A stretch of DNA of 26,117 nucleotides, taken from IMG/VR virus record IMGVR_UViG_3300028553_000143, positions 1-26,117 of that record. One strand, given 5' to 3'. Each line of letters starts with the position of its first letter. Position 1 is the stretch's first letter. Both the position numbers and the translations under genes were made by a program. This document shows positions 1-8,180 of this stretch, piece by piece. The notes beneath the pieces were generated by a model. The model had not been told where the DNA came from, searched no databases, and saw only the letters and a program-made list of their open reading frames with translations. This stretch comes from a virus.

Positions 1-1
1 A

Positions 2-388
2 CAGGCATGCGCAACCTGCAAAAAGGTGATGACTTACACTAAGTACTGCTCACAGGAATGCGCTACAGAAGCACGGCGAGCAGCGTCGCGCGCCAAAATT
101 ATCGAGAGTGGCAGCTTTATAGCAGCCAGATCAAAAGGCCCAGCTAAGCGTTATATGCTGGAAAAACAAGGACACAACTGCGCCATATGTAAGAATACAA
201 CATGGCAAGGACAACCTATTCCGTTAATCATGGACCACATTGATGGAGACTCCGGCAACAACAAGATAAATAACATCCGCTTAGTTTGCGGAAACTGCGA
301 CATGCAGCTACCAACGTATAAGAACAAGAATAAAGGAAAAGGGCGGGCATATCGCAGGAAGCGTTATGCCGAGGGAAAGACCTACTAA
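2..388 (+). CDS. HNH endonuclease, 5' end cut by window edge
   Basis: The reading frame is open from base 2, so the gene begins upstream of the window. The ATG at 26 is probably internal: the codons before it encode a CxxC pair that completes a zinc knuckle with the later YCSQEC. The C-terminal half is a zinc-supported HNH nuclease: a CAIC knuckle, then a DHIDGD segment containing the catalytic His, then NNKINNIRLVC and GNC, which supplies the last zinc ligands. Members of this family are free-standing DNA nicking or cleaving enzymes that spread by homing, and are common in large phages. The basic tail (KNKNKGKGRAYRRKR) could bind DNA. It precedes an AAA+ ATPase gene with a 28-base G-poor gap. 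The family call is firm; the target site is unknown. Confidence 0.85.
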   Translation, partial: QACATCKKVMTYTKYCSQECATEARRAASRAKIIESGSFIAARSKGPAKRYMLEKQGHNCAICKNTTWQGQPIPLIMDHIDGDSGNNKINNIRLVCGNCDMQLPTYKNKNKGKGRAYRRKRYAEGKTY

Positions 389-416
389 TAAACAACCAAC
401 ACACCACAACACATAA
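389..416 (+). promoter_or_regulatory. G-less CA-rich leader before the AAA+ gene
   Basis: The bases between the HNH stop and the ATPase ATG contain only A, C and T, with repeated CAAC/CACA units and no purine-rich ribosome-binding site. Similar leaders precede 7206 and 26067. Such unstructured leaders can recruit ribosomes without Shine-Dalgarno pairing; that role is inferred. Confidence 0.5.
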
Positions 417-1550
417 ATGAAAAACAACTGGTCACAGAGTGGCAACATCTTCCGCATCGAAGAGGTTAGCCAGCAACTAGAACTACTACCGATTGGAATA
501 TACATCCTTCGGTGGAACCAACGCATGGGATTCTTTCTGGAGCACATCTCCAAGGAGTTCCCTCTGCCACCGAAGGTATATGGCCTGTGCGACGACTTTA
601 TCGCACGTGTCATCCGTACCTGGAACAATACAACTACCAACCTCGGAGCGCTGCTAAACGGCATTCGGGGTACCGGCAAGACGGTTACCTGCGAGATTCT
701 TGCCAACAAGCTGCAGCTGCCCGTGATCATCGTGGACGCTGCCTACGACGACATCAATGAGTTCGTCGGTAACATTCAGCAGGACGTGGTGCTCTTCTTC
801 GACGAGTTCGAGAAGGTATTTCCTCGGGAATACGGCCACCCAAGTAAACTGCTCATGCTTATGGACGGCGTTACCAAGGGTGCCTACCGCAAGCTGTTTC
901 TGCTTACAACCAACGAGCTCAACATCGAGCCCAACATGATACAGCGGCCAGGACGTATTCGGTACGTGAAGACATTCGGCAACCTGCATCCGGACATCAT
1001 CTACCAGATCGTGGATGACCGGCTGAAGTATACCGAGCTGCGGCAGTCTGTCATCGACTTCGTCTCCGAGCTGGAGCTTATTACGGTGGACTCCGTGTGC
1101 GCCATCATCGATGAGGTGAACATTCACCACGAGGCTCCTTCCGCCTTCGAAGACGTGTTCAACGTCAAGAAGATCGCGGATCTGCACGCCGTCTACGAGG
1201 TTATCAAGGATGAGAATGGCACGCCTATTGGCGAGAAGCTGCTGCACGATAACATCAAGCTGCGGCCCGCTCCGCTCAATTATGGCTGTGTGGGCTACGA
1301 CCTCTGGGCCAACCGCGACGAGCTCGGCCAGATCGCCGAGGTACTCGACACGGATCTGATCAACATATACTCCGCATTCACTGAGAAGGAGATTATTGAT
1401 GCTGAGGAAAATGATACGGAACTCGACATCTGCAAGCAGCCCATTCGTACTCTGCGTATCGAGCCTCGCAGCTCTTACAACAGAGTGTTCCGTGGTGGTG
1501 GAAACCGCTTTATGGGTAACGGGCTGTCCTGCATGGACCTGGATATTTAA
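417..1550 (+). CDS. AAA+ ATPase
   Basis: This 377-residue protein is a classical AAA ATPase. Walker A is GIRGTGKT at residues 82-89, Walker B is VVLFFDE at 124-130, sensor 1 is TTN near 164-166, and an RPGRIR segment at 177-182 resembles the arginine-finger region (second region of homology) of FtsH/Vps4-type ATPases. About 80 residues precede the ATPase core and about 170 follow it; I recognise no partner domain in either. The gene sits between an HNH gene and the tRNA cluster, which does not reveal its substrate. The start lacks a Shine-Dalgarno sequence and follows an A/C-rich leader without G. ATPase identity is certain from the motifs; the remodelled target (protein, tail or DNA complex) is not known. 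Confidence 0.85.
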   Translation: MKNNWSQSGNIFRIEEVSQQLELLPIGIYILRWNQRMGFFLEHISKEFPLPPKVYGLCDDFIARVIRTWNNTTTNLGALLNGIRGTGKTVTCEILANKLQLPVIIVDAAYDDINEFVGNIQQDVVLFFDEFEKVFPREYGHPSKLLMLMDGVTKGAYRKLFLLTTNELNIEPNMIQRPGRIRYVKTFGNLHPDIIYQIVDDRLKYTELRQSVIDFVSELELITVDSVCAIIDEVNIHHEAPSAFEDVFNVKKIADLHAVYEVIKDENGTPIGEKLLHDNIKLRPAPLNYGCVGYDLWANRDELGQIAEVLDTDLINIYSAFTEKEIIDAEENDTELDICKQPIRTLRIEPRSSYNRVFRGGGNRFMGNGLSCMDLDI

Positions 1551-1559
1551 CAAGGTCTT

Positions 1560-1631
1560 GGAGTCTTAGTGTAGTGGTTAACACGCAGCCCTGTCACGGC
1601 TGTAACACGGGTTCAAATCCCGTAGGCTCCG
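1560..1631 (+). tRNA. tRNA-Asp(GTC)
   Basis: The sequence folds as a complete cloverleaf: acceptor GGAGTCT/AGGCTCC with one G-U pair, D arm GTGT/ACAC, anticodon stem CAGCC/GGCTG with loop CTGTCAC (anticodon GTC), and T arm ACGGG/CCCGT with loop TTCAAAT. The discriminator is G, as expected for Asp. The 3' CCA is not encoded. It is the first tRNA of the cluster. Confidence 0.93.
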
Positions 1632-1659
1632 TCCAATAGACTGTCAGCATCTTTAAAGT

Positions 1660-1688
1660 TTGACAGCACTGCTTTTTAGCTGTATATT
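1660..1688 (+). promoter_or_regulatory. Sigma70-like promoter of HNH gene 1695
   Basis: A perfect -35 TTGACA (1660-1665) and a -10 TATATT (1683-1688) are separated by exactly 17 bases. Only six bases separate the -10 from the ATG at 1695, so transcription would begin at or next to the start codon and give a leaderless mRNA. Confidence 0.75.
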
Positions 1689-1694
1689 TACAGA

Positions 1695-2129
1695 ATGAAA
1701 ATATGCAGCAAATGTAAGAAGCAGCTGGACCTGTCTCAGTTTTGGATAAAAAATAAAAAGCGCAAGGACGGCAGTATATATGTGAGCAGGCAGTGTATGT
1801 GCAAGACGTGCTCTTCACAGCGCCGTACAGCCTATTATTTGCGTAATAAACAAACGGAGGTCGGCAAGAGAGCTGCGCGCGTACAAGAAAACAAAACGTG
1901 GTTTATAGAGTATAAGCAAACATTAAAGTGCTCTAAATGTGGAGACGCAAGACACTATGTATTAGACTTTCACCACAAGGCTGAAGATAAACTTCATGAA
2001 GTATCCGTGATGTACGCAAAATATTCAAGGACCACACTTCTACGCGAGATTGCTAAATGTGAGGTGCTCTGCGCTAACTGCCACAGAGAATTGCATTACT
2101 TAGCTAACAATAAATTACAGGGAGTTTAG
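1695..2129 (+). CDS. HNH endonuclease with N-terminal zinc knuckles
   Basis: The protein has 144 residues. Cys4/Cys7 and Cys36/Cys39 form an N-terminal zinc-binding module. The nuclease follows: Cys79/Cys82, the catalytic DFHH at 91-94, and LCANCHRELH at 125-134 with the closing zinc cysteines and histidines. It is of the same type as the proteins at 3000 and 3449. The gene has its own near-consensus promoter, whose -10 lies six bases before the ATG. The last three codons and the stop lie inside the 5' acceptor strand of the downstream tRNA-Lys, a 10-base overlap. This placement suggests a homing element that recognises tRNA genes. The HNH call is firm; the tRNA target is inferred from position only. 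Confidence 0.88.
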   Translation: MKICSKCKKQLDLSQFWIKNKKRKDGSIYVSRQCMCKTCSSQRRTAYYLRNKQTEVGKRAARVQENKTWFIEYKQTLKCSKCGDARHYVLDFHHKAEDKLHEVSVMYAKYSRTTLLREIAKCEVLCANCHRELHYLANNKLQGV

Positions 2130-2192
2130 CTCAATTGGTAGAGCAGGAGCCCTTTAAGCTCTTGGTTCTGGGTTCGAGTCCCAGAGCTCCTA
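2120..2192 (+). tRNA. tRNA-Lys(TTT) with unusual C33
   Basis: Cloverleaf: acceptor GGGAGTT/AGCTCCT (1-72 is a G-U wobble), D arm GCTC/GAGC, anticodon stem GGAGC/GCTCT, T arm CTGGG/CCCAG with loop TTCGAGT, discriminator A. The anticodon loop is CCTTTAA, so the anticodon is TTT (Lys), but position 33, almost universally T, is C. The first ten bases overlap the end of the HNH gene. CCA is not encoded. Confidence 0.85.
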
Positions 2193-2230
2193 TAATTTAC
2201 TTACAGCACATAGATATGGCTGACAGCTTT

Positions 2231-2314
2231 AGCGTCGTGGTGAAATTGGTAGACACACTATCCTTTGGAGATAGAGCCTATTAGGCATTCTAGGTTCGAC
2301 CCCTAGCGACGCTG
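2231..2314 (+). tRNA. tRNA with long variable arm, anticodon TTG (Gln-type)
   Basis: Acceptor AGCGTCG/CGACGCT pairs perfectly, the D arm is GTG/CAC with an 11-base loop, the anticodon stem is CTATC/GATAG, and the T arm is CTAGG/CCTAG. The loop CTTTGGA gives anticodon TTG, which reads CAA (Gln). A 15-base variable region containing GCCT/AGGC forms an extra arm, as in Leu/Ser/Tyr tRNAs, and the D arm is Leu-like. The weak A1-U72 pair and G73 instead resemble glutaminyl-tRNA identity. Gln is the reading by anticodon; a mutated Leu tRNA is the alternative. Confidence 0.8.
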
Positions 2315-2452
2315 CTTTTTCTTCGAGATAGTATATCCGTTATGCTCGAGTACTTTTTGCACAAAGACAAATACGCATCTTATCTTTAAATCCTTTATTC
2401 ATACGGCAACTATGCCCAAAATCAATAAATTAGGCAAGTAAATTTAACAACA

Positions 2453-2767
2453 ATGGATGACAAACGACAACCAGAAGTATTTTTAGACTTATTTAAGCGC
2501 CCGGTGTTTCCAGGAGACTACGTGATGTTTCCTGTGAATACAGTCATGCGCTTCGCTGTGGTTAAGGAGGTGGCCAGCAAGAAAAGCCTGTATGTATCCT
2601 ATTTTCAAGTACACAAGTTGGAACACCATCTCCGAAAAAGGACGTACGCTATAAGTGCTTACAACAGAGACGTAATCAAGATCGCAGCCGAGGAAGTGGA
2701 AAACCTGCTTGCGCCTATCGTATACGTTCCAATGCGGGATCTTTGCGAAAAATACAAAGCAACATAA
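2453..2767 (+). CDS. Hypothetical protein in tRNA cluster
   Basis: This 104-residue soluble protein is not one I recognise. The first half looks like a small beta barrel (FKRPVFPGDYVMFPVNTVMRF, then AVVKEV and LYVSYFQVHKL). The second half is more helical, with a basic KLEHHLRKRTY stretch that could contact nucleic acid. It lies between the TTG tRNA and tRNA-His, on the same strand. The start is preceded by AAATTTAACAAC rather than a Shine-Dalgarno sequence, the same A/C-rich context as other genes here. Codon use and length support a real gene; the function is unknown. Confidence 0.7.
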   Translation: MDDKRQPEVFLDLFKRPVFPGDYVMFPVNTVMRFAVVKEVASKKSLYVSYFQVHKLEHHLRKRTYAISAYNRDVIKIAAEEVENLLAPIVYVPMRDLCEKYKAT

Positions 2768-2772
2768 CAAAC

Positions 2773-2850
2773 GGTACTCGTAGCTCAATTGGTTAGAGCT
2801 CCCGATTGTGGGTCGGGCGGTTGTGGGTTCGAGCCCCATCGAGTACCCCA
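2773..2850 (+). tRNA. tRNA-His(GTG)
   Basis: An extra 5' G (position -1) faces C73, the hallmark of tRNA-His. Acceptor GTACTCG/CGAGTAC, D arm GCTC/GAGC, anticodon stem CCCGA/TCGGG with loop TTGTGGG (anticodon GTG), T arm GTGGG/CCCAT. Here the 3' CCA is encoded (2848-2850), unlike the Asp and Lys genes. Confidence 0.95.
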
Positions 2851-2851
2851 C

Positions 2852-2928
2852 GGGCGCGTAGCTCAGCTGGTTAGAGCAATCGCTTGATAGGCGATAGGTC
2901 GTAGGTTCGAATCCTACCGCGCCCACCA
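2852..2928 (+). tRNA. tRNA-Ile(GAT)
   Basis: Canonical cloverleaf starting one base after tRNA-His: acceptor GGGCGCG/CGCGCCC, D arm GCTC/GAGC, anticodon stem ATCGC/GCGAT with loop TTGATAG (anticodon GAT), T arm GTAGG/CCTAC with loop TTCGAAT, discriminator A and encoded CCA (2926-2928). His and Ile are probably one tandem precursor. Confidence 0.95.
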
Positions 2929-2940
2929 AATTTAACAACC

Positions 2941-2964
2941 GGGAGGTTAGCTCAGCGGTAGAGC
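2941..2964 (+). pseudogene. Orphan 5' half of a tRNA (acceptor strand + D arm)
   Basis: GGGAGGT, TA and a full D arm GCTC-AGCGGTA-GAGC form a textbook tRNA 5' end, but no anticodon arm or T arm follows; an HNH gene begins 36 bases later. GGGAGGT is a perfect seven-base complement of the 3' acceptor strand ACCTCCC of the tRNA-Val at 3375-3381. It is best read as the original 5' half of that tRNA, separated by the HNH gene. A deletion remnant of another tRNA is the alternative. Confidence 0.7.
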
Positions 2965-2999
2965 TTGACTAAGTCTACCGTGTGTGGTAAATATTATGA

Positions 3000-3326
3000 A
3001 TGACCACATGCAAAAAATGCGGCAGGGAATACGCGTACGCCAGAAGTCGCGGGCACAGAGTAACAATGTGCAACTCGTGTTTCACTAAAGCAAAAAATCT
3101 AAGGATTAAAGGTAAAGCTGTCGAGTACAAAGGAGGAAAATGTAAATATTGCAACTATGATAAATGCTTAGCTGCACTGCATTTCCACCACAGGGATCCG
3201 GATAAGAAGGACTTCGGAATAGGTACTGGATTCAATCGAGCCTGGGCTAAGGTTACTGACGAGCTAGACAAATGTGATTTGGTGTGTGCAAATTGCCACG
3301 CCGAAATACACGCGGGGTTGTTGTAA
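3000..3326 (+). CDS. HNH endonuclease inserted at a tRNA gene
   Basis: The protein has 108 residues: an N-terminal zinc knuckle (Cys4, Cys7, Cys24, Cys27), then the HNH core with Cys48/Cys51, the catalytic HFHH at 61-64 and VCANCHAEIH at 95-104. It is a shorter relative of the 144-residue HNH upstream. The last four codons (Ala-Gly-Leu-Leu) and the stop are also the first 15 bases of tRNA-Val, so the reading frame supplies the present 5' end of the tRNA. An orphan tRNA 5' half lies just upstream. A TAAATA -10-like box (2988-2993) ends six bases before the ATG, suggesting leaderless transcription. Identity is firm; homing into the tRNA is inferred. Confidence 0.88.
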   Translation: MTTCKKCGREYAYARSRGHRVTMCNSCFTKAKNLRIKGKAVEYKGGKCKYCNYDKCLAALHFHHRDPDKKDFGIGTGFNRAWAKVTDELDKCDLVCANCHAEIHAGLL

Positions 3327-3382
3327 TGGTAGCGAGTCTCCTTTACACGGAGAAAGCGGGGGTTCGATCCCCTCACCTCCCA
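3312..3382 (+). tRNA. tRNA-Val(TAC), 5' end shared with HNH gene
   Basis: Anticodon arm TCTCC/GGAGA with loop TTTACAC (anticodon TAC), T arm GGGGG/CCCTC with loop TTCGATC, acceptor 3' strand ACCTCCC, discriminator A. The adjoining 5' strand GCGGGGT pairs at six of seven positions (C2 faces C71), and the D stem TTGT/GCGA depends on two G-U pairs. The 3' two thirds look intact while the 5' third looks improvised. No CCA is encoded. Confidence 0.8.
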
Positions 3383-3413
3383 TTCTTTCCAACAGGGTAG
3401 ACGCAGATTTAGA

Positions 3414-3441
3414 TTGTGATTTTCTATCTACCGTGTATATT
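3414..3441 (+). promoter_or_regulatory. Promoter-like element of HNH gene 3449
   Basis: TTGTGA (3414-3419) and TATATT (3436-3441) are 16 bases apart; the -10 ends seven bases before the ATG at 3449. The 10-mer TCTACCGTGT (3427-3436) also occurs at 2974-2983, in front of the HNH gene at 3000. Confidence 0.5.
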
Positions 3442-3448
3442 CGTAGTT

Positions 3449-3988
3449 ATGTTAACGAAAAATGTACACAGAAACTGTAAGCGCTGTTCTAAATCCTTCT
3501 TAACCACCGCCAGAGATGTGGCCCGTGGTTGGGGGCTATACTGCTCTGCTGCTTGTGTCCGAGAGGACATAGCAGCCCGTCGTAAAAAAGAAACAGCTGA
3601 AAGAAAAGAACGGATGGGTAGTAACGTAAAGTGCGCAGCTTGCGCAAAAGCACTATACCGCTCACCGCGTAGGTTGAAGCTATCTAAAAGCGGCTTATAC
3701 TTTTGCTCTAATACCTGTAGGGCTAGTGCGCAGCACGTAGGTGGCCCCTTGGAGTTTTTACCCGAGCACTACGGGACCCTTGGGGAAGAAGGCTACAGCC
3801 GCTATAGAGCTAAGGCGTTTAAACATAAAGCAAGCTGCTGTGAGTTATGTAGTTATGATAAATTCCCCAAATTGCTAGAAGTGCACCATAAAGATAAAAA
3901 TAGGCGTAACTCCGACTTAAATAACCTGCAAATACTGTGCCGCAACTGTCATGCGGAGCAGCATATGCTACTCTGCCCACCAACTTAA
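3449..3988 (+). CDS. HNH endonuclease with two zinc ribbons
   Basis: The protein has 179 residues from the ATG at 3449. I prefer this start to an in-frame ATG at 3416, because a TATATT -10 box lies between the two. Two four-cysteine knuckles (Cys10, Cys13, Cys32, Cys36; Cys62, Cys65, Cys86, Cys90) are separated by a very basic helix. The HNH core follows: Cys131/Cys134, the catalytic EVHH at 144-147, NN at 158-159, and LCRNCHAEQH to 172. It is the longest of the HNH enzymes here. It follows tRNA-Val and ends three bases before the next gene, so it may be co-transcribed with the small-protein operon. The family call is firm; target specificity is unknown. Confidence 0.87.
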   Translation: MLTKNVHRNCKRCSKSFLTTARDVARGWGLYCSAACVREDIAARRKKETAERKERMGSNVKCAACAKALYRSPRRLKLSKSGLYFCSNTCRASAQHVGGPLEFLPEHYGTLGEEGYSRYRAKAFKHKASCCELCSYDKFPKLLEVHHKDKNRRNSDLNNLQILCRNCHAEQHMLLCPPT

Positions 3989-3991
3989 ACA

Positions 3992-4192
3992 ATGAAAATA
4001 ATCGAAACAAATGCACGCGATGACGGAGCTGTTGTCTACGTGGAAGCTATATGTGAAAATGTGGATGGAAAACTTATGCAAGTCAGCACATGCAAGTTCA
4101 GCTACAAGACCAAAGATGAAAAGCAACGAGCTTTAAAGCTGGCACACGCCGACATCGAATACTTTTTAACGAACGACAATGAAAAAACTTAA
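3992..4192 (+). CDS. Small hypothetical protein
   Basis: This 66-residue acidic protein is not recognised. It appears to have a beta-rich first half (VVYVEAICENVDGKLMQVSTCKF) and a helical second half (DEKQRALKLAHADIEYFL). The start is three bases after the HNH stop and is preceded by AACTTAAACA, without a Shine-Dalgarno sequence. Its last 14 bases overlap the start of the prepilin-like gene, so the two are probably translationally coupled. Confidence 0.6.
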   Translation: MKIIETNARDDGAVVYVEAICENVDGKLMQVSTCKFSYKTKDEKQRALKLAHADIEYFLTNDNEKT

Positions 4193-4394
4193 ACACAAAG
4201 CATTTAGTCTCCTCGAGCTGCTCGTGGTGATATCTGTAATCGCAATCATAGTTTCAATAGCTATACCTAATATAGTAGACGTGACCAAGAAGAAGCATAC
4301 GCGCTATTACGCTAACCCCATGGGTGCTCCTGTACCTGTGGAAACGAATACACCGCAGCGCTTCTGCCCCTACTGCGGGCATTCTCTGCCCTAG
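4179..4394 (+). CDS. Prepilin-like small membrane protein with Cys-pair tail
   Basis: The 71-residue product begins like a type IV prepilin or pseudopilin. A short basic leader of eight residues is followed by FSLLELLVVI, with Phe9 at the mature +1 position, Glu13 at +5, and a hydrophobic helix to about residue 32. Prepilin peptidase normally cuts after Gly; here the -1 residue is Ala8, which is less usual. The exposed part is only about 40 residues, far shorter than a pilin head, and ends in FCPYCGHSLP, half of a zinc ribbon. A phage gene like this could enter and poison the host pilus or type II secretion machinery, or could be chance similarity of a membrane anchor. It overlaps the previous gene by 14 bases. 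Confidence 0.7.
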   Translation: MKKLKHKAFSLLELLVVISVIAIIVSIAIPNIVDVTKKKHTRYYANPMGAPVPVETNTPQRFCPYCGHSLP

Positions 4395-4400
4395 TGTTAT

Positions 4401-4706
4401 ATGGGACTTGGATACTGTAACCCAGAGATAGAGAGCATCTTGCGCAATGCAAGAAAGGCGTACAGGCAGCTCGATGAAATAACCCAGGAGTTAAGAGACA
4501 AGGCCAATGCACTTGACGAAGTTCAGATGAAACTCTCTAAGGACGCCGTCGCCCATTGCAGAGCGCATGGCCTTCTAGAAATTGATGAGACCGCTGCGGA
4601 GTACGTTGTGGACGATTGGTATGGTGACGCCGACATGGAGTACATGTTCAAGGAGCACCATCCCAGACCACCTAAAGCACCAAAGAAAAAGAAACAACCA
4701 AAATGA
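4401..4706 (+). CDS. Hypothetical coiled-coil protein
   Basis: The 101-residue protein has a predicted helix or coiled coil at about residues 7-50 (ARKAYRQLDEITQELRDKANAL), an acidic middle (VVDDWYGDADMEY) and a Lys/Pro-rich tail (PKAPKKKKQPK). I do not recognise it. It begins six bases after the prepilin-like gene and its stop overlaps the next start in an ATGA, so it belongs to the same translationally coupled operon. Confidence 0.65.
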   Translation: MGLGYCNPEIESILRNARKAYRQLDEITQELRDKANALDEVQMKLSKDAVAHCRAHGLLEIDETAAEYVVDDWYGDADMEYMFKEHHPRPPKAPKKKKQPK

Positions 4707-4918
4707 AACTAACAGACAGCCAAAGAAAAGCAGTTAAGGAAGCAAGCGCAAAGATTGCTGAGCTTTCCGCCAAGCAAGACTTCATCTACCATGCATTACT
4801 CAACGTAGTACAGGTGGAGGAGGGACGTGAAGAGAACCTGATATTTGATCTGGTTTACAACACAGACGAGGAGGAGCTTGATGAGACAATCACCAGATAC
4901 GAGCAGTACACTGCTTAA
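4703..4918 (+). CDS. Small hypothetical helical protein
   Basis: This 71-residue, mostly helical protein has a basic first third and an acidic C-terminal region (NTDEEELDETITRYEQ). It is not recognised. The start is coupled to the previous stop through ATGA. Its 3' end overlaps the following gene by about 38 bases if that gene starts at 4881. Confidence 0.6.
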   Translation: MKLTDSQRKAVKEASAKIAELSAKQDFIYHALLNVVQVEEGREENLIFDLVYNTDEEELDETITRYEQYTA

Positions 4919-5144
4919 GAACTTTAAATGCAAGGAGTTGTTTAAAGTCCCTGGCGTATATGAATTCGACCCTCCGCGACCATTGCAGTGGGTTATGTCG
5001 GTTCCTCCCGAGAATGCCTCTACTACGCCAGGCATCATGCACGTGCACATAGGGGCGCGAGTAGTGGCCCCTTTGGATCTGAAGCAGCACGCCAATACAA
5101 ACTTCGTGCTGAGTAAGCGCAAGCTCTACAAAGTACATGGATAA
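4881..5144 (+). CDS. Hypothetical protein, start uncertain
   Basis: The 87-residue product is not recognised. Residues from about 15 on (KCKELFKVPGVYEFDPPRP, MHVHIGARVVAP) look like a compact beta-rich fold. I chose the ATG at 4881. An ATG at 4845 would overlap the previous gene by 74 bases with an N-terminus of poor quality, and an unnoticed non-ATG start near 4920 is also possible. The 3' end overlaps the next gene by eight bases. Confidence 0.55.
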   Translation: MRQSPDTSSTLLKNFKCKELFKVPGVYEFDPPRPLQWVMSVPPENASTTPGIMHVHIGARVVAPLDLKQHANTNFVLSKRKLYKVHG

Positions 5145-5469
5145 CATTCCGTTAGTTCTTACTCCTGCGCAAGTAGCTATTTGCAAGGAGGTTAACAGAG
5201 AGTACTGGGTACACAAGGCCCAGGCAAAGGAGCTGCGTAAAGCCGTCAGGGATCTTGATAAGGCGGCTGATGCGTTGGCCTATGCGATAGGACCACGCTT
5301 CGGTTTTCTTACAGACGAGGCTCGTGATGCGCTTCAGGAGGCTAACGAAGAGGCAGGCCTACCCGAGGCTCCTGAGGAGAGTGATTACAGAACAGAGGCA
5401 CTTGCCGATATTATCCAATGCCGCCCGGAAGAGTTTGACGCAGCGATAGAGGAACACATACAACAATGA
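5137..5469 (+). CDS. Hypothetical acidic helical protein
   Basis: This 110-residue protein is strongly helical. A mixed-charge heptad-like segment (VHKAQAKELRKAVRDLDKAADALAYAI) is followed by an acidic second half. I do not recognise it. Its stop overlaps the RNA ligase start (ATGA), which makes coordinated expression with the ligase likely. Confidence 0.62.
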   Translation: MDNIPLVLTPAQVAICKEVNREYWVHKAQAKELRKAVRDLDKAADALAYAIGPRFGFLTDEARDALQEANEEAGLPEAPEESDYRTEALADIIQCRPEEFDAAIEEHIQQ

Positions 5470-6554
5470 TTAACTTAGAGAAACTCAAAGAACAGGAATT
5501 TGCGGTTAAGACCAGAGTCATAAAGGGCGAGGAGCTCTATCTGGTCTACCCAACGAAGATAGGCGTCAAGTGGGGCGCAGAGAATATGATCTACAGATCA
5601 AGCATGTGGACAAGAGACGGCAAGCCTGTCTCTCTGGGTTTCAAAAAATTCTTTAACCTGGGTGAAGCTCCTCATATATGCGCCGATCCGGTGTCGCTGG
5701 AGAAGTGCACAGTCGTGGAGAAGCTCGACGGCACGTGCCTCATCGTCTCCAAACACAAGGGGCATGAGATAGTGCGCACGAGGGGTACGGTAGATTTTGC
5801 CGAGCAAGCAAACGCCGATGAGCTACAGTTGCTCAAGGACTTCTATCCTATGGCGTTCGACAACCCTCAGATTAACTCCGAGCAGTACACGTTTCTGTAT
5901 GAGTTCACTACTCCTACAAACGTCATAGTGCTGGACTACGGCGCTATTCCAGACATACGTCTGGTTGGTGTTGTGCAGCACCTGGACTATTCGTATCTGC
6001 CGCAGCACGAGCTGGATCAGATTGCGCGGGAGTACAAGCTCAAGAGACCTAAGACAGCCACGTACAGCGACCTGTACAAGCTTACGGATGAAATGAAGAC
6101 CGTGCTGGGCATCGAGGGCTACTGCATATACTACCATAACGATCAGGACATTAAGAAGGTCAAGAGTGACGACTACCTGGCTAAGCACCGGTTCAAGTCT
6201 GACTACTCTGTGGAGCGAGTCATCGACTTGTACCTTCAACAGGGCAGACCGCATTACATAGACTTCATGGCCTACCTGCAGGACGAGCTGGACTTCGAGT
6301 GCATGCTCAGAGCCTCGGCAGATGCCTCCAAGATATGTGATGCCATGGTGACGGTTAACAGAATAACGACACACATGGAGCAGTTTGTACGTGGCTTCGA
6401 TGGTAAGGAGCGCTCGGGGCGCAAGGAAGCGGCTCTGGCAATTACGCAGGCCTACGGCAATACGAACCGTGCAGGCTTCGCATTTAAATTGCTTGACGGA
6501 GGTACACTGGATAACGATGATATGAAGAAGCTTCTATTCCAATGTCTAAACTAA
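5466..6554 (+). CDS. T4 Rnl1-type RNA ligase
   Basis: The 362-residue protein matches the length (about 370) and motif order of T4 RNA ligase 1. LGFKKFFNLGE (57-67) precedes motif I EKLDGT with the nucleotidyl-accepting lysine Lys86. VRTRG follows near 103-107, motif IIIa is FLYEF at 143-147, motif IV EGY at 217-219, and motif V KVK at 231-233. The C-terminal third is the less conserved substrate-specificity region. Rnl1 enzymes seal 5'-phosphate and 3'-OH RNA ends using ATP; in T4 this repairs tRNA cut by a host anticodon nuclease. I see no polynucleotide kinase/phosphatase gene in the window. The position in an operon just after a tRNA cluster fits tRNA repair. Confidence 0.9.
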   Translation: MINLEKLKEQEFAVKTRVIKGEELYLVYPTKIGVKWGAENMIYRSSMWTRDGKPVSLGFKKFFNLGEAPHICADPVSLEKCTVVEKLDGTCLIVSKHKGHEIVRTRGTVDFAEQANADELQLLKDFYPMAFDNPQINSEQYTFLYEFTTPTNVIVLDYGAIPDIRLVGVVQHLDYSYLPQHELDQIAREYKLKRPKTATYSDLYKLTDEMKTVLGIEGYCIYYHNDQDIKKVKSDDYLAKHRFKSDYSVERVIDLYLQQGRPHYIDFMAYLQDELDFECMLRASADASKICDAMVTVNRITTHMEQFVRGFDGKERSGRKEAALAITQAYGNTNRAGFAFKLLDGGTLDNDDMKKLLFQCLN

Positions 6555-7003
6555 ACCTCACACGCTCCAAGATTCTCACACAAGTATACAAGCACTTCGG
6601 CGTCTCGAAGAAAGCACTTAAGCAGCTGACGGAGAAAGGTATAGAGTGGCACGCTGGAGAGATTCAGTTCACCATACCTCTCCATCAGTTGACTGACGGT
6701 ACGTATAGAGACATCACGCTGGGAGAGTCCAACGTAATAGATAGCCCCTATACACTGAGCGCCAAGGCCTTCAAGAAGACAAAGGCGTATGCGGAGTATC
6801 TCATTGCAGCTGCCTCTCTATCGGATATGGAGGGCTACTGCTTTATGAGCAAGGGCAGCCGTGCCATATTTGTTATACAGGAGCAATATGAAGGCTACTA
6901 CGGTGGTAGCGGTGGAATCTTCTTCAAGGAGCTTGGCCTCTCGATAACCACACTCGAGAACTACCTGCAGGACATGCATCCTGTGGACCACGAAACCGAA
7001 TAA
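6542..7003 (+). CDS. Hypothetical protein downstream of RNA ligase
   Basis: The 153-residue protein is not recognised. It starts with a basic helical region (SKILTQVYKHFGVSKKALKQL), continues with a beta-rich middle, and has a Gly-rich turn (GYYGGSGGIFF) followed by a helical end. It overlaps the ligase gene by 13 bases in another frame and is the last gene of this operon; an extended -10 promoter follows immediately. A role in RNA metabolism is only guilt by association. Confidence 0.62.
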   Translation: MSKLNLTRSKILTQVYKHFGVSKKALKQLTEKGIEWHAGEIQFTIPLHQLTDGTYRDITLGESNVIDSPYTLSAKAFKKTKAYAEYLIAAASLSDMEGYCFMSKGSRAIFVIQEQYEGYYGGSGGIFFKELGLSITTLENYLQDMHPVDHETE

Positions 7004-7006
7004 AAG

Positions 7007-7015
7007 TGGTATAAT
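7007..7015 (+). promoter_or_regulatory. Extended -10 promoter P1
   Basis: TGGTATAAT is a perfect extended -10 element (TGnTATAAT), which needs no -35; none is visible. The same nine bases recur at 7118 and 25962, each followed by A, two variable bases and TTGAA/TTGGAA. It begins four bases after the stop of the 6542 gene. Confidence 0.75.
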
Positions 7016-7044
7016 ACATTGAAAGAGATTTGGTTGTGGTGCGG

Positions 7045-7086
7045 AGGTGCGTCAGAGAGAGAAATCAATCTGGCGCACCTTTTTTT
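7045..7086 (+). terminator. Rho-independent terminator after P1
   Basis: AGGTGCGTCAGA (7045-7056) pairs with TCTGGCGCACCT (7069-7080) over 12 positions with one G-U, and is followed by a run of T. Only about 20 bases separate it from the predicted P1 start, so P1 would give a short RNA of about 65 bases unless termination is overridden. It can equally end the upstream ligase operon. Confidence 0.8.
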
Positions 7087-7117
7087 AGCTAGCGAATAAG
7101 CAGCGTCCAGCAAAAGC

Positions 7118-7126
7118 TGGTATAAT
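7118..7126 (+). promoter_or_regulatory. Extended -10 promoter P2
   Basis: TGGTATAAT again, followed by AATTTGAAGAAG. The predicted start (about 7133) lies at the base of the next hairpin. This is the likely promoter of the GC-rich gene at 7206. Confidence 0.75.
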
Positions 7127-7131
7127 AATTT

Positions 7132-7167
7132 GAAGAAGACTTTGTCCTATTGGGCACTGGCTTTTTT
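7132..7167 (+). other. 5'-terminal hairpin and CA-rich leader of the 7206 mRNA
   Basis: GAAGAAG pairs with CTTTTTT and TGTCC with GGGCA around a TATT loop, with small internal mismatches. The hairpin begins at the predicted P2 start. After it comes an A/C-rich leader to the ATG at 7206, without a Shine-Dalgarno sequence. It could act as a weak terminator or as a 5' stabilising cap on the mRNA. Confidence 0.55.
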
Positions 7168-7205
7168 AAACTAACGCAAAACCACAAAACCAACATAAAA
7201 CTCGC

Positions 7206-8180
7206 ATGGCCATCCAACTGACCAAAGAAGAAGAGGCGGAGCAAAACCGTCTCGCAGCCGAACACGGCATTGACCTAGGCGCTGAGTCCATCCACGCACG
7301 TGCGTCGGACGAGGATCTCATCATCCAACCCGAAACAACCCACACGGCTACCATGGAACCGATCGTCAACATCAACCCCACTCCGGCTCACTCCGGCGTG
7401 TGTGATGATGCGGACCTGATCCGTGCAGCCTACATGAACGAAGTCCGCCGCCGGGCCTCGATTCCGGCCGCCCAGTGGCGCCCCTCGTGGCTGCCCCATC
7501 AGCAATCGATCACGAACCGCCCTGGAGTTGGGTTGTTCCAAACGATCGACGGCAAGAAGTCTCAAGTCCTGGAGCAGGATGACTTCGAGGCCTTCATCGG
7601 CTCAATTGCCGAAGCAACCCAGGAGACGGGATACTGCGGGCATGACAGCAGCAAGATGCTGCTCGTCCGCGCCACCCTGCCTCAGGGTTATGAGGTTCGT
7701 GTGCCGAGTGTAATGGTGAGGGATATCCCTCCACATTACTTCATGCATGAAGGGGTTCGTGTGCACGTCACTCGGCCCTGGAAGAAAGGCGTTGCGCCTG
7801 CCACCTTCTTAGTGTGCAGGCAGATGCAGCCGTTTGGCCCTGGGACGGAGTCCTCGGTCTCGGCCGAGAGTGTCCGCCGGTATCAGGCGGTGACGTTCAA
7901 AGTCCGTATCGAGGACCAGTGCTTGATGGCCTGGTACCCCGGTCTGGATCGCGACCGCGTCGCCTGCAATGGCCTCGAGGAGACCTTCGTGAACATCGGC
8001 ATGCACGTGCCGAAGTCAGGCGAGGTCAGCAAGCCCCATCAGGGGCGCAAGCCCCAGAAGGGCGGTCAGCGCAACCACCAGCAGAAACAGAACCGCTTCG
8101 GCGGGGCGTTCTCTGCTGAGGTGATTGCAGAGATCGCAGCGCAGGCAGCTGTTGCAGCTGTCGAGCGCACGCGCAAGTAA
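7206..8180 (+). CDS. GC-rich protein of unknown function
   Basis: I do not recognise this 324-residue protein. An acidic N-terminal region leads to a compact alpha/beta core at about 75-265 (WLPHQQSITN, YEVRVPSVMVRDIPPHYF, GVRVHVTRPWKK). A Gly/Gln/Lys/Arg-rich linker (KPHQGRKPQKGGQRN) follows, then a C-terminal Ala-rich amphipathic helix (EVIAEIAAQAAVAAVERTRK), a layout seen in nucleic-acid-binding or oligomerising proteins. Codons ending in C or G dominate, in contrast to both neighbours. Strong tandem promoters, a 5' hairpin and a CA-rich leader precede it. Composition and promoter strength suggest high expression or acquisition from a GC-rich source; I cannot separate the two. Confidence 0.75.
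   Translation: MAIQLTKEEEAEQNRLAAEHGIDLGAESIHARASDEDLIIQPETTHTATMEPIVNINPTPAHSGVCDDADLIRAAYMNEVRRRASIPAAQWRPSWLPHQQSITNRPGVGLFQTIDGKKSQVLEQDDFEAFIGSIAEATQETGYCGHDSSKMLLVRATLPQGYEVRVPSVMVRDIPPHYFMHEGVRVHVTRPWKKGVAPATFLVCRQMQPFGPGTESSVSAESVRRYQAVTFKVRIEDQCLMAWYPGLDRDRVACNGLEETFVNIGMHVPKSGEVSKPHQGRKPQKGGQRNHQQKQNRFGGAFSAEVIAEIAAQAAVAAVERTRK

Follow-up and report, generated by a model that had tools for sequence, protein, structure and literature searches.

A phage HNH gene that ends in a tRNA-Val gene may have homed together with a same-anticodon tRNA segment

How did a severed tRNA 5' end, an HNH gene, and a tRNA gene with a mismatched acceptor stem come to lie in a row in a viral tRNA cluster? 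The virus contig analyzed here (the window; 26,117 bases, classed linear) carries a co-oriented tRNA cluster at 1559-3382, in the order Asp, Lys, Gln, His, Ile, Val, and the interval from tRNA-Ile to tRNA-Val holds both an orphan tRNA 5' end (2941-2964) and an HNH ORF (3000-3326). A sequence-only reading had proposed that the HNH gene split a tRNA-Val and re-supplied its 5' end from within its own coding sequence. The analysis described below favors, with a probability of roughly 60%, a free-standing homing gene of the HNH type that moves together with, and fused to, a segment of a same-anticodon tRNA, i.e., intronless homing with co-conversion of the tRNA. The features concerned are as follows.

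1695-2129, plus strand: second HNH ORF, of the same broad family as the ORF at 3000 (PHROG; ORF and tRNA calls)
2852-2928, plus strand: tRNA-Ile(GAT), intact, the upstream neighbor (ARAGORN; Rfam, 74.1 bits)
2941-2964, plus strand: 5' end of a type A tRNA-Val(TAC), left as an orphan and spanning canonical positions 1-25 (acceptor strand and D arm), as judged from the sequence, its match to intact tRNA-Val(TAC), and 7/7 pairing with 3375-3381
2965-2999, plus strand: non-tRNA spacer from the orphan half to the HNH start, where the tRNA does not continue in the sequence; putative left insertion junction
3000-3326, plus strand: HNH endonuclease ORF, 108 aa, phrog_2255-like (PHROG profile search, E = 7.5e-27; alignment A1; AF2 model, pLDDT 89.8)
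3312-3326, plus strand: dual-use stretch, in which HNH codons 105-108 and TAA are nucleotides 1-15 of tRNA-Val (sequence, ORF and tRNA calls, AF2 model)
3312-3382, plus strand: tRNA-Val(TAC), a probable chimera (ARAGORN; Rfam, 49.9 bits; comparison with relatives)
3312-3357, plus strand: probable type B part of tRNA-Val, namely acceptor 5' strand, D arm, anticodon arm, and 4-nt variable loop (against the intact type B tRNA-Val of L172)
3358-3382, plus strand: probable type A part of tRNA-Val, namely T arm (closer to L164) and 3' acceptor (7/7 with the orphan)
3449-3988, plus strand: third HNH ORF, of a different subfamily (phrog_1271), just 3' of tRNA-Val (profile search)
5466-6554: T4-type phage RNA ligase (profile search)

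By its sequence, the orphan is the 5' end of a tRNA-Val(TAC) of a type that we call A. The stretch 2941-2964 (GGGAGGTTAGCTCAGCGGTAGAGC) comprises an acceptor strand of 7 nt, T8/A9, and a D arm with all pairs formed, beyond which the sequence is no longer tRNA; the sequence-only reading had both its coordinates and its letters right. Of 2.9 million viral contigs, 4 contain the 24-mer (one position taken as C or T), and in all of them it begins an uninterrupted tRNA-Val(TAC), never another tRNA. The proposed exact complementarity to the downstream tRNA-Val was also found: GGGAGGT forms 7/7 Watson-Crick pairs with the 3' acceptor strand ACCTCCC (3375-3381), and when orphan halves in the collected loci were paired with downstream tRNAs (1018 combinations), such 7/7 acceptor pairing was seen at the window locus alone. 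The tRNA-Val's own GCGGGGT forms five Watson-Crick pairs, one G-U, and one mismatch (C2-C71) with the same strand, and the Rfam alignment flags C2-C71 as a non-pair. When the orphan is joined to the 3' part, the result is, as had been predicted, a fully paired molecule, folding into a full cloverleaf at -31.8 kcal/mol compared with -20.3 kcal/mol for the actual tRNA-Val. The poorer pairing ascribed to 3312-3335 is borne out at C2-C71 but not in the G-U-rich D stem, which is normal in the intact tRNA-Val genes of L172 and L151; hence only the acceptor mismatch is peculiar in this tRNA.

To trace the two parts of the tRNA-Val, we compared it with those of phages related through the portal protein (73-75% amino acid identity), which carry intact tRNA-Val(TAC) in two types. 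Type A, intact in L164 and L169, shares its D arm with the orphan, and the L164 copy has GGGGGTTCGATTCCCTCA as its T arm. Type B is intact in L172, where it reads GCGGGATTGTTGTAATGGTAGCGATTCTCTTTTACACGGAGAAAG... and has no HNH ORF alongside. The window tRNA-Val agrees with type B of L172 at 6/7 positions of the acceptor 5' strand, 17/17 of the D arm, 16/17 of the anticodon arm, and 4/5 of the variable loop, whereas its T arm agrees at 16/17 positions with type A (L164) and at 14/17 with type B. A 4-nt variable loop accompanies type B-like D arms, and a 5-nt loop is found in most TAGCTCAG-type tRNA-Val genes. As the orphan represents a type A 5' end, and the window tRNA-Val is type B as far as the variable loop, this tRNA is probably a chimera of a type B 5' part with a type A T arm and 3' acceptor. 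The join likely lies around the T arm, because the match to type B runs through the variable loop, while the T arm is type A-like and the 3' acceptor complements the orphan. An insertion at the junction of D arm and anticodon arm, as originally placed, is probably wrong: D arm, anticodon arm, and 4-nt variable loop are of type B, and type A resumes at the T arm.

The sole candidate gene within 2941-3382 is the HNH ORF; no integrase and no att repeats at tRNA ends were found, and the ends of this interval carry no matching repeat pair. The HNH and zinc-cysteine residues are kept, with C48, C51, H63, H64, C96, C99, and H100 invariant in the alignment, and for the HNH ORFs the best families among the matches listed were HNH, none being GIY-YIG. 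The AF2 model is confident, and the codons shared with the tRNA follow its last predicted helix (97-104); fold matches to PacI, EndoVII, and Gme HNH in a PDB search were weak (all E > 0.001). The ORF stands alone, without a surrounding intron, and Rfam detected neither a group I intron (Intron_gpI) nor, at the gathering threshold, any other intron family in the window. The best reading is thus of a free-standing homing-type endonuclease gene that is not intron-borne. The whole of 3312-3335 had been taken for the end of its coding sequence; four codons and TAA at 3312-3326 do belong to it, and the remainder lies beyond the ORF. Coding and tRNA sequence therefore coincide in the first 15 nt of the replacement 5' end, most of which is carried outside the ORF as a segment of a same-anticodon tRNA.

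We propose that these pieces arose as follows, presumably in this order. An ancestor would have carried an intact type A tRNA-Val, which the HNH nuclease would have cut or nicked. Repair from a putative donor, consisting of an HNH gene and a type B tRNA-Val, would then have copied the HNH gene together with the front of the donor tRNA (about 46 nt), and the resident gene would have been rejoined around the conserved T arm, as the region-by-region similarity suggests. The outcome would be a leftover type A 5' end (2941-2964), the HNH gene (3000-3326), and a tRNA-Val with a donor front and a resident back (3312-3382). A segment with the same anticodon would keep the tRNA usable and remove the cleavable allele. 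No donor allele of this composition was found in searches with the replacement 5' half and the type B core. The portal-related phages are too distant for a base-exact empty site, and no syntenic one was found for the window, since its AAA gene matched none of the six portal-related records and its RNA ligase matched one. A DNA similarity search with window positions 1-8000 against named phages gave solely tRNAs among the matches listed.

Pairs with and without an HNH gene were observed among near-identical phages elsewhere. In the Pakpunavirus phages HHBS9_1 and ph0034, an HNH ORF interrupts tRNA-Lys(TTT) in its anticodon loop: the 5' half is left through TTTTAA, and native sequence picks up at GTGAGTTCGAG in the T arm. 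The same tRNA is intact and HNH-free in JG004 and PAK_P1. The inserted HNH is related to both window HNH proteins (E = 3e-19 for the ORF at 1695 and 7e-13 for that at 3000); HHBS9_1 has no recognizable replacement tRNA-Lys. In Lahexavirus, an HNH of a different type lies inside the T loop of tRNA-His(GTG) in 4_4572 (L176, about 241-660) and LAh_9 (L178), the site being empty in LAh_6 and LAh_8. Besides these insertions, HNH genes were found next to replaced same-anticodon tRNAs. LAh_6 and 4_4572 carry an HNH gene followed 3 nt on by a tRNA-Gly(TCC) that is 58% identical to the tRNA-Gly(TCC) at the same place in LAh_8 and LAh_9, which lack that HNH. In the Kolesnikvirus phages ST-3 and Ep030, the HNH gene ends in the D loop of tRNA-Gly(TCC), which supplies its stop codon; this D loop differs from that of phiEa21-4 and SunLIRen, and the remainder of the tRNA is identical. 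PAK_P2 and JG003 (Pakpunavirus) have an HNH beside a replaced tRNA-Arg(TCT). The idea that an HNH gene split the tRNA-Val and brought a new 5' end thus holds in outline except for its junction, being supported by the identity of the orphan, the intact type B gene of a relative, and HNH insertions in tRNAs.

Not every locus fits a simple same-anticodon rule. The HNH-plus Ounavirinae Sf16, warpig, and FelixO1 have tRNA-Arg(TCT) types unlike those of most HNH-free phages seen, but this isoacceptor rule is broken by KPS64, which has the Sf16-type tRNA-Arg without HNH. A same-anticodon rule drew no support from L051, L052, L065, and L099, where the identity of the orphan is not clear; in L052, it resembles tRNA-Lys and the next tRNA is Ile. 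Separately, at L079 (6380-6912), a 5' part of tRNA-Arg(ACG) reaching past the anticodon loop is followed by an HNH ORF and then by a complete, different tRNA-Arg(ACG).

Ending inside a downstream tRNA is a frequent trait of the HNH family. Among ORFs with a co-oriented tRNA start -45 to +200 nt from the stop, 28/63 HNH ORFs overlapped the tRNA, compared with 25/173 other ORFs (p = 3e-6; the loci, collected through their HNH similarity, are only partly independent). The commonest HNH stop offset is -10, usually a TAG formed by T8-A9-G10 of the tRNA. The window's HNH ORF at 1695-2129 has its TAG at T8-A9-G10 of tRNA-Lys(TTT) (2120-2192).

This preference bears on the rival that fares best, namely that two tRNA-Val alleles recombined at conserved arms without any nuclease and left a truncated 5' end, with the HNH gene a passenger that had come to lie nearby or had been fused to the tRNA by drift. 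Short homologies are naturally provided by tRNA arms, some other ORFs too end at -10 in tRNAs, and orphan halves occur almost as often where HNH genes are absent: in gaps between co-oriented tRNAs, orphan 5' halves occurred in 5/65 gaps with HNH and 9/193 without (p = 0.26, not significant), so tRNA scraps also arise by other routes. An early list had suggested that orphan halves gather upstream of HNH genes; it was discarded in view of this matched control, and L095, L060, and L085 looked intron-containing. Against nuclease-free recombination, several of the near-identical phage pairs show tRNA insertion or exchange where HNH is present, overlap with tRNA starts is commoner for HNH than for other ORFs, and the window HNH sits exactly between two tRNA parts. 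We consider this rival unlikely.

A second possibility is that there is no chimera: an intact unit of HNH and type B tRNA-Val landed in a type A tRNA-Val, the type A 3' part was lost, and the 3' acceptor drifted. Type B alone accounts for 62/72 tRNA-Val positions and a two-parent chimera for 65/72, a modest gain, and the argument for chimerism therefore draws mainly on the acceptor. There, drift would require two changes that spoil the tRNA's own pairing yet produce a 7/7 complement of the orphan, and the T arm is nearer type A; we find this reading quite improbable. A split tRNA, whose 5' half and 3' part are joined in trans, e.g., by the phage RNA ligase at 5466-6554, is highly improbable, since perfect pairing of the two parts and a T4-type ligase encoded nearby are set against absent splicing-endonuclease signals, a contiguous 5' end already present on tRNA-Val, and no sign of selection keeping the orphan.

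Homing of the HNH gene with co-conversion of the tRNA, the reading that we prefer, can be set in the context of the wider family. Members in bacterial genomes lie just 5' of tRNA-Asn (L186, L187, L192) or tRNA-Gly (L195). The family is both free-standing and intron-associated, because a member in L095 (3871-4490) accompanies a group I intron (Intron_gpI, 70 bits) that interrupts an apparent tRNA-Asn in its anticodon loop. We tentatively suggest, at somewhat less than even odds, that a widespread phage HNH family lands in tRNA genes and moves as a fused nuclease-tRNA cassette, its 3' codons forming the 5' end of a same-anticodon rescue tRNA. Each homing event would swap a cleavable for a resistant allele with decoding kept, and tRNA allele exchange in phages would be nuclease-driven.

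Several further observations were made in the collected loci. tRNA-Asn(GTT) is frequent directly downstream of HNH genes, including in the bacterial contigs L186, L187, and L192. In L060 (870-1148), the HNH ORF ends in the 5' end of an apparent tRNA-Asn(GTT) that is interrupted in the anticodon loop; the interruption looks intron-like by eye, but no Rfam intron family reaches the gathering threshold there. In L006, L019, and L118, the 3' ends of HNH ORFs of this family overlap tRNA genes on the opposite strand.

Among known systems, SegB of T-even phages is a GIY-YIG homing endonuclease in a tRNA cluster; segB shares microhomology at its 3' end with the start of a tRNA gene, and SegB drives recombination of the tRNA region (PMC13096335, PMC2988022). 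Like SegB as described there, the window HNH is encoded by a free-standing gene among phage tRNA genes, but SegB is a GIY-YIG enzyme inserted between tRNA genes, and the available parts of these accounts contain no split tRNA, coding overlap with a re-supplied 5' part, or chimeric tRNA, all features of the window locus. Phage HNH proteins of phrog_2255 and phrog_3106, with relatives in Felix O1, PAK_P2, ST-3, and LAh_6, belong to the same family by profile and sequence search, and several adjoin or overlap tRNA genes; we found no characterized target for them, and their link to tRNA exchange comes only from the present comparison. HNH-encoding group I introns in tRNA genes are matched by the L095 member, whereas the window locus has no intron and nothing to splice out. 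Integrative elements whose attachment sites lie in tRNA genes usually restore the tRNA 3' end. The window locus likewise has a mobile unit that would interrupt a tRNA gene and restore the lost end, but it has no integrase, would use a nuclease and repair route, and re-supplies the 5' part. In a limited literature search, we came across no report of an HNH gene whose last codons double as the 5' part of a replacement tRNA.

tRNA clusters vary greatly between closely related phages, which is usually discussed in terms of codon usage or tRNA-targeting defense. If HNH genes are fused to same-anticodon tRNA segments, selfish nucleases with their own tRNA repair patch would cause part of this variation. 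Such fusion would also explain why HNH stops lie within tRNA genes, why phage tRNAs can be chimeric, and how some orphan tRNA halves arose. It predicts that the resident tRNA is cleaved internally and that the carried allele is resistant. The locus hints that selfish homing genes may spread by swapping tRNA genes without tRNA loss.

Two minor observations concern the third HNH gene of the window. The motif TCTACCGTGT lies at 2973-2982 and at about 3430-3439, shortly 5' of the HNH ORFs at 3000 and 3449, and might serve both as a control element. The third HNH gene has a 3' end (3965-3992, GCTACTCTGCCCACCAACTTAA) that resembles the tRNA-Ile 3' end at 2911-2938 (79% identity over 28 nt) and has CTGCCCACCA in common with the L164 type A tRNA-Val at its 3' end; this gene end is possibly an orphan tRNA 3' end.
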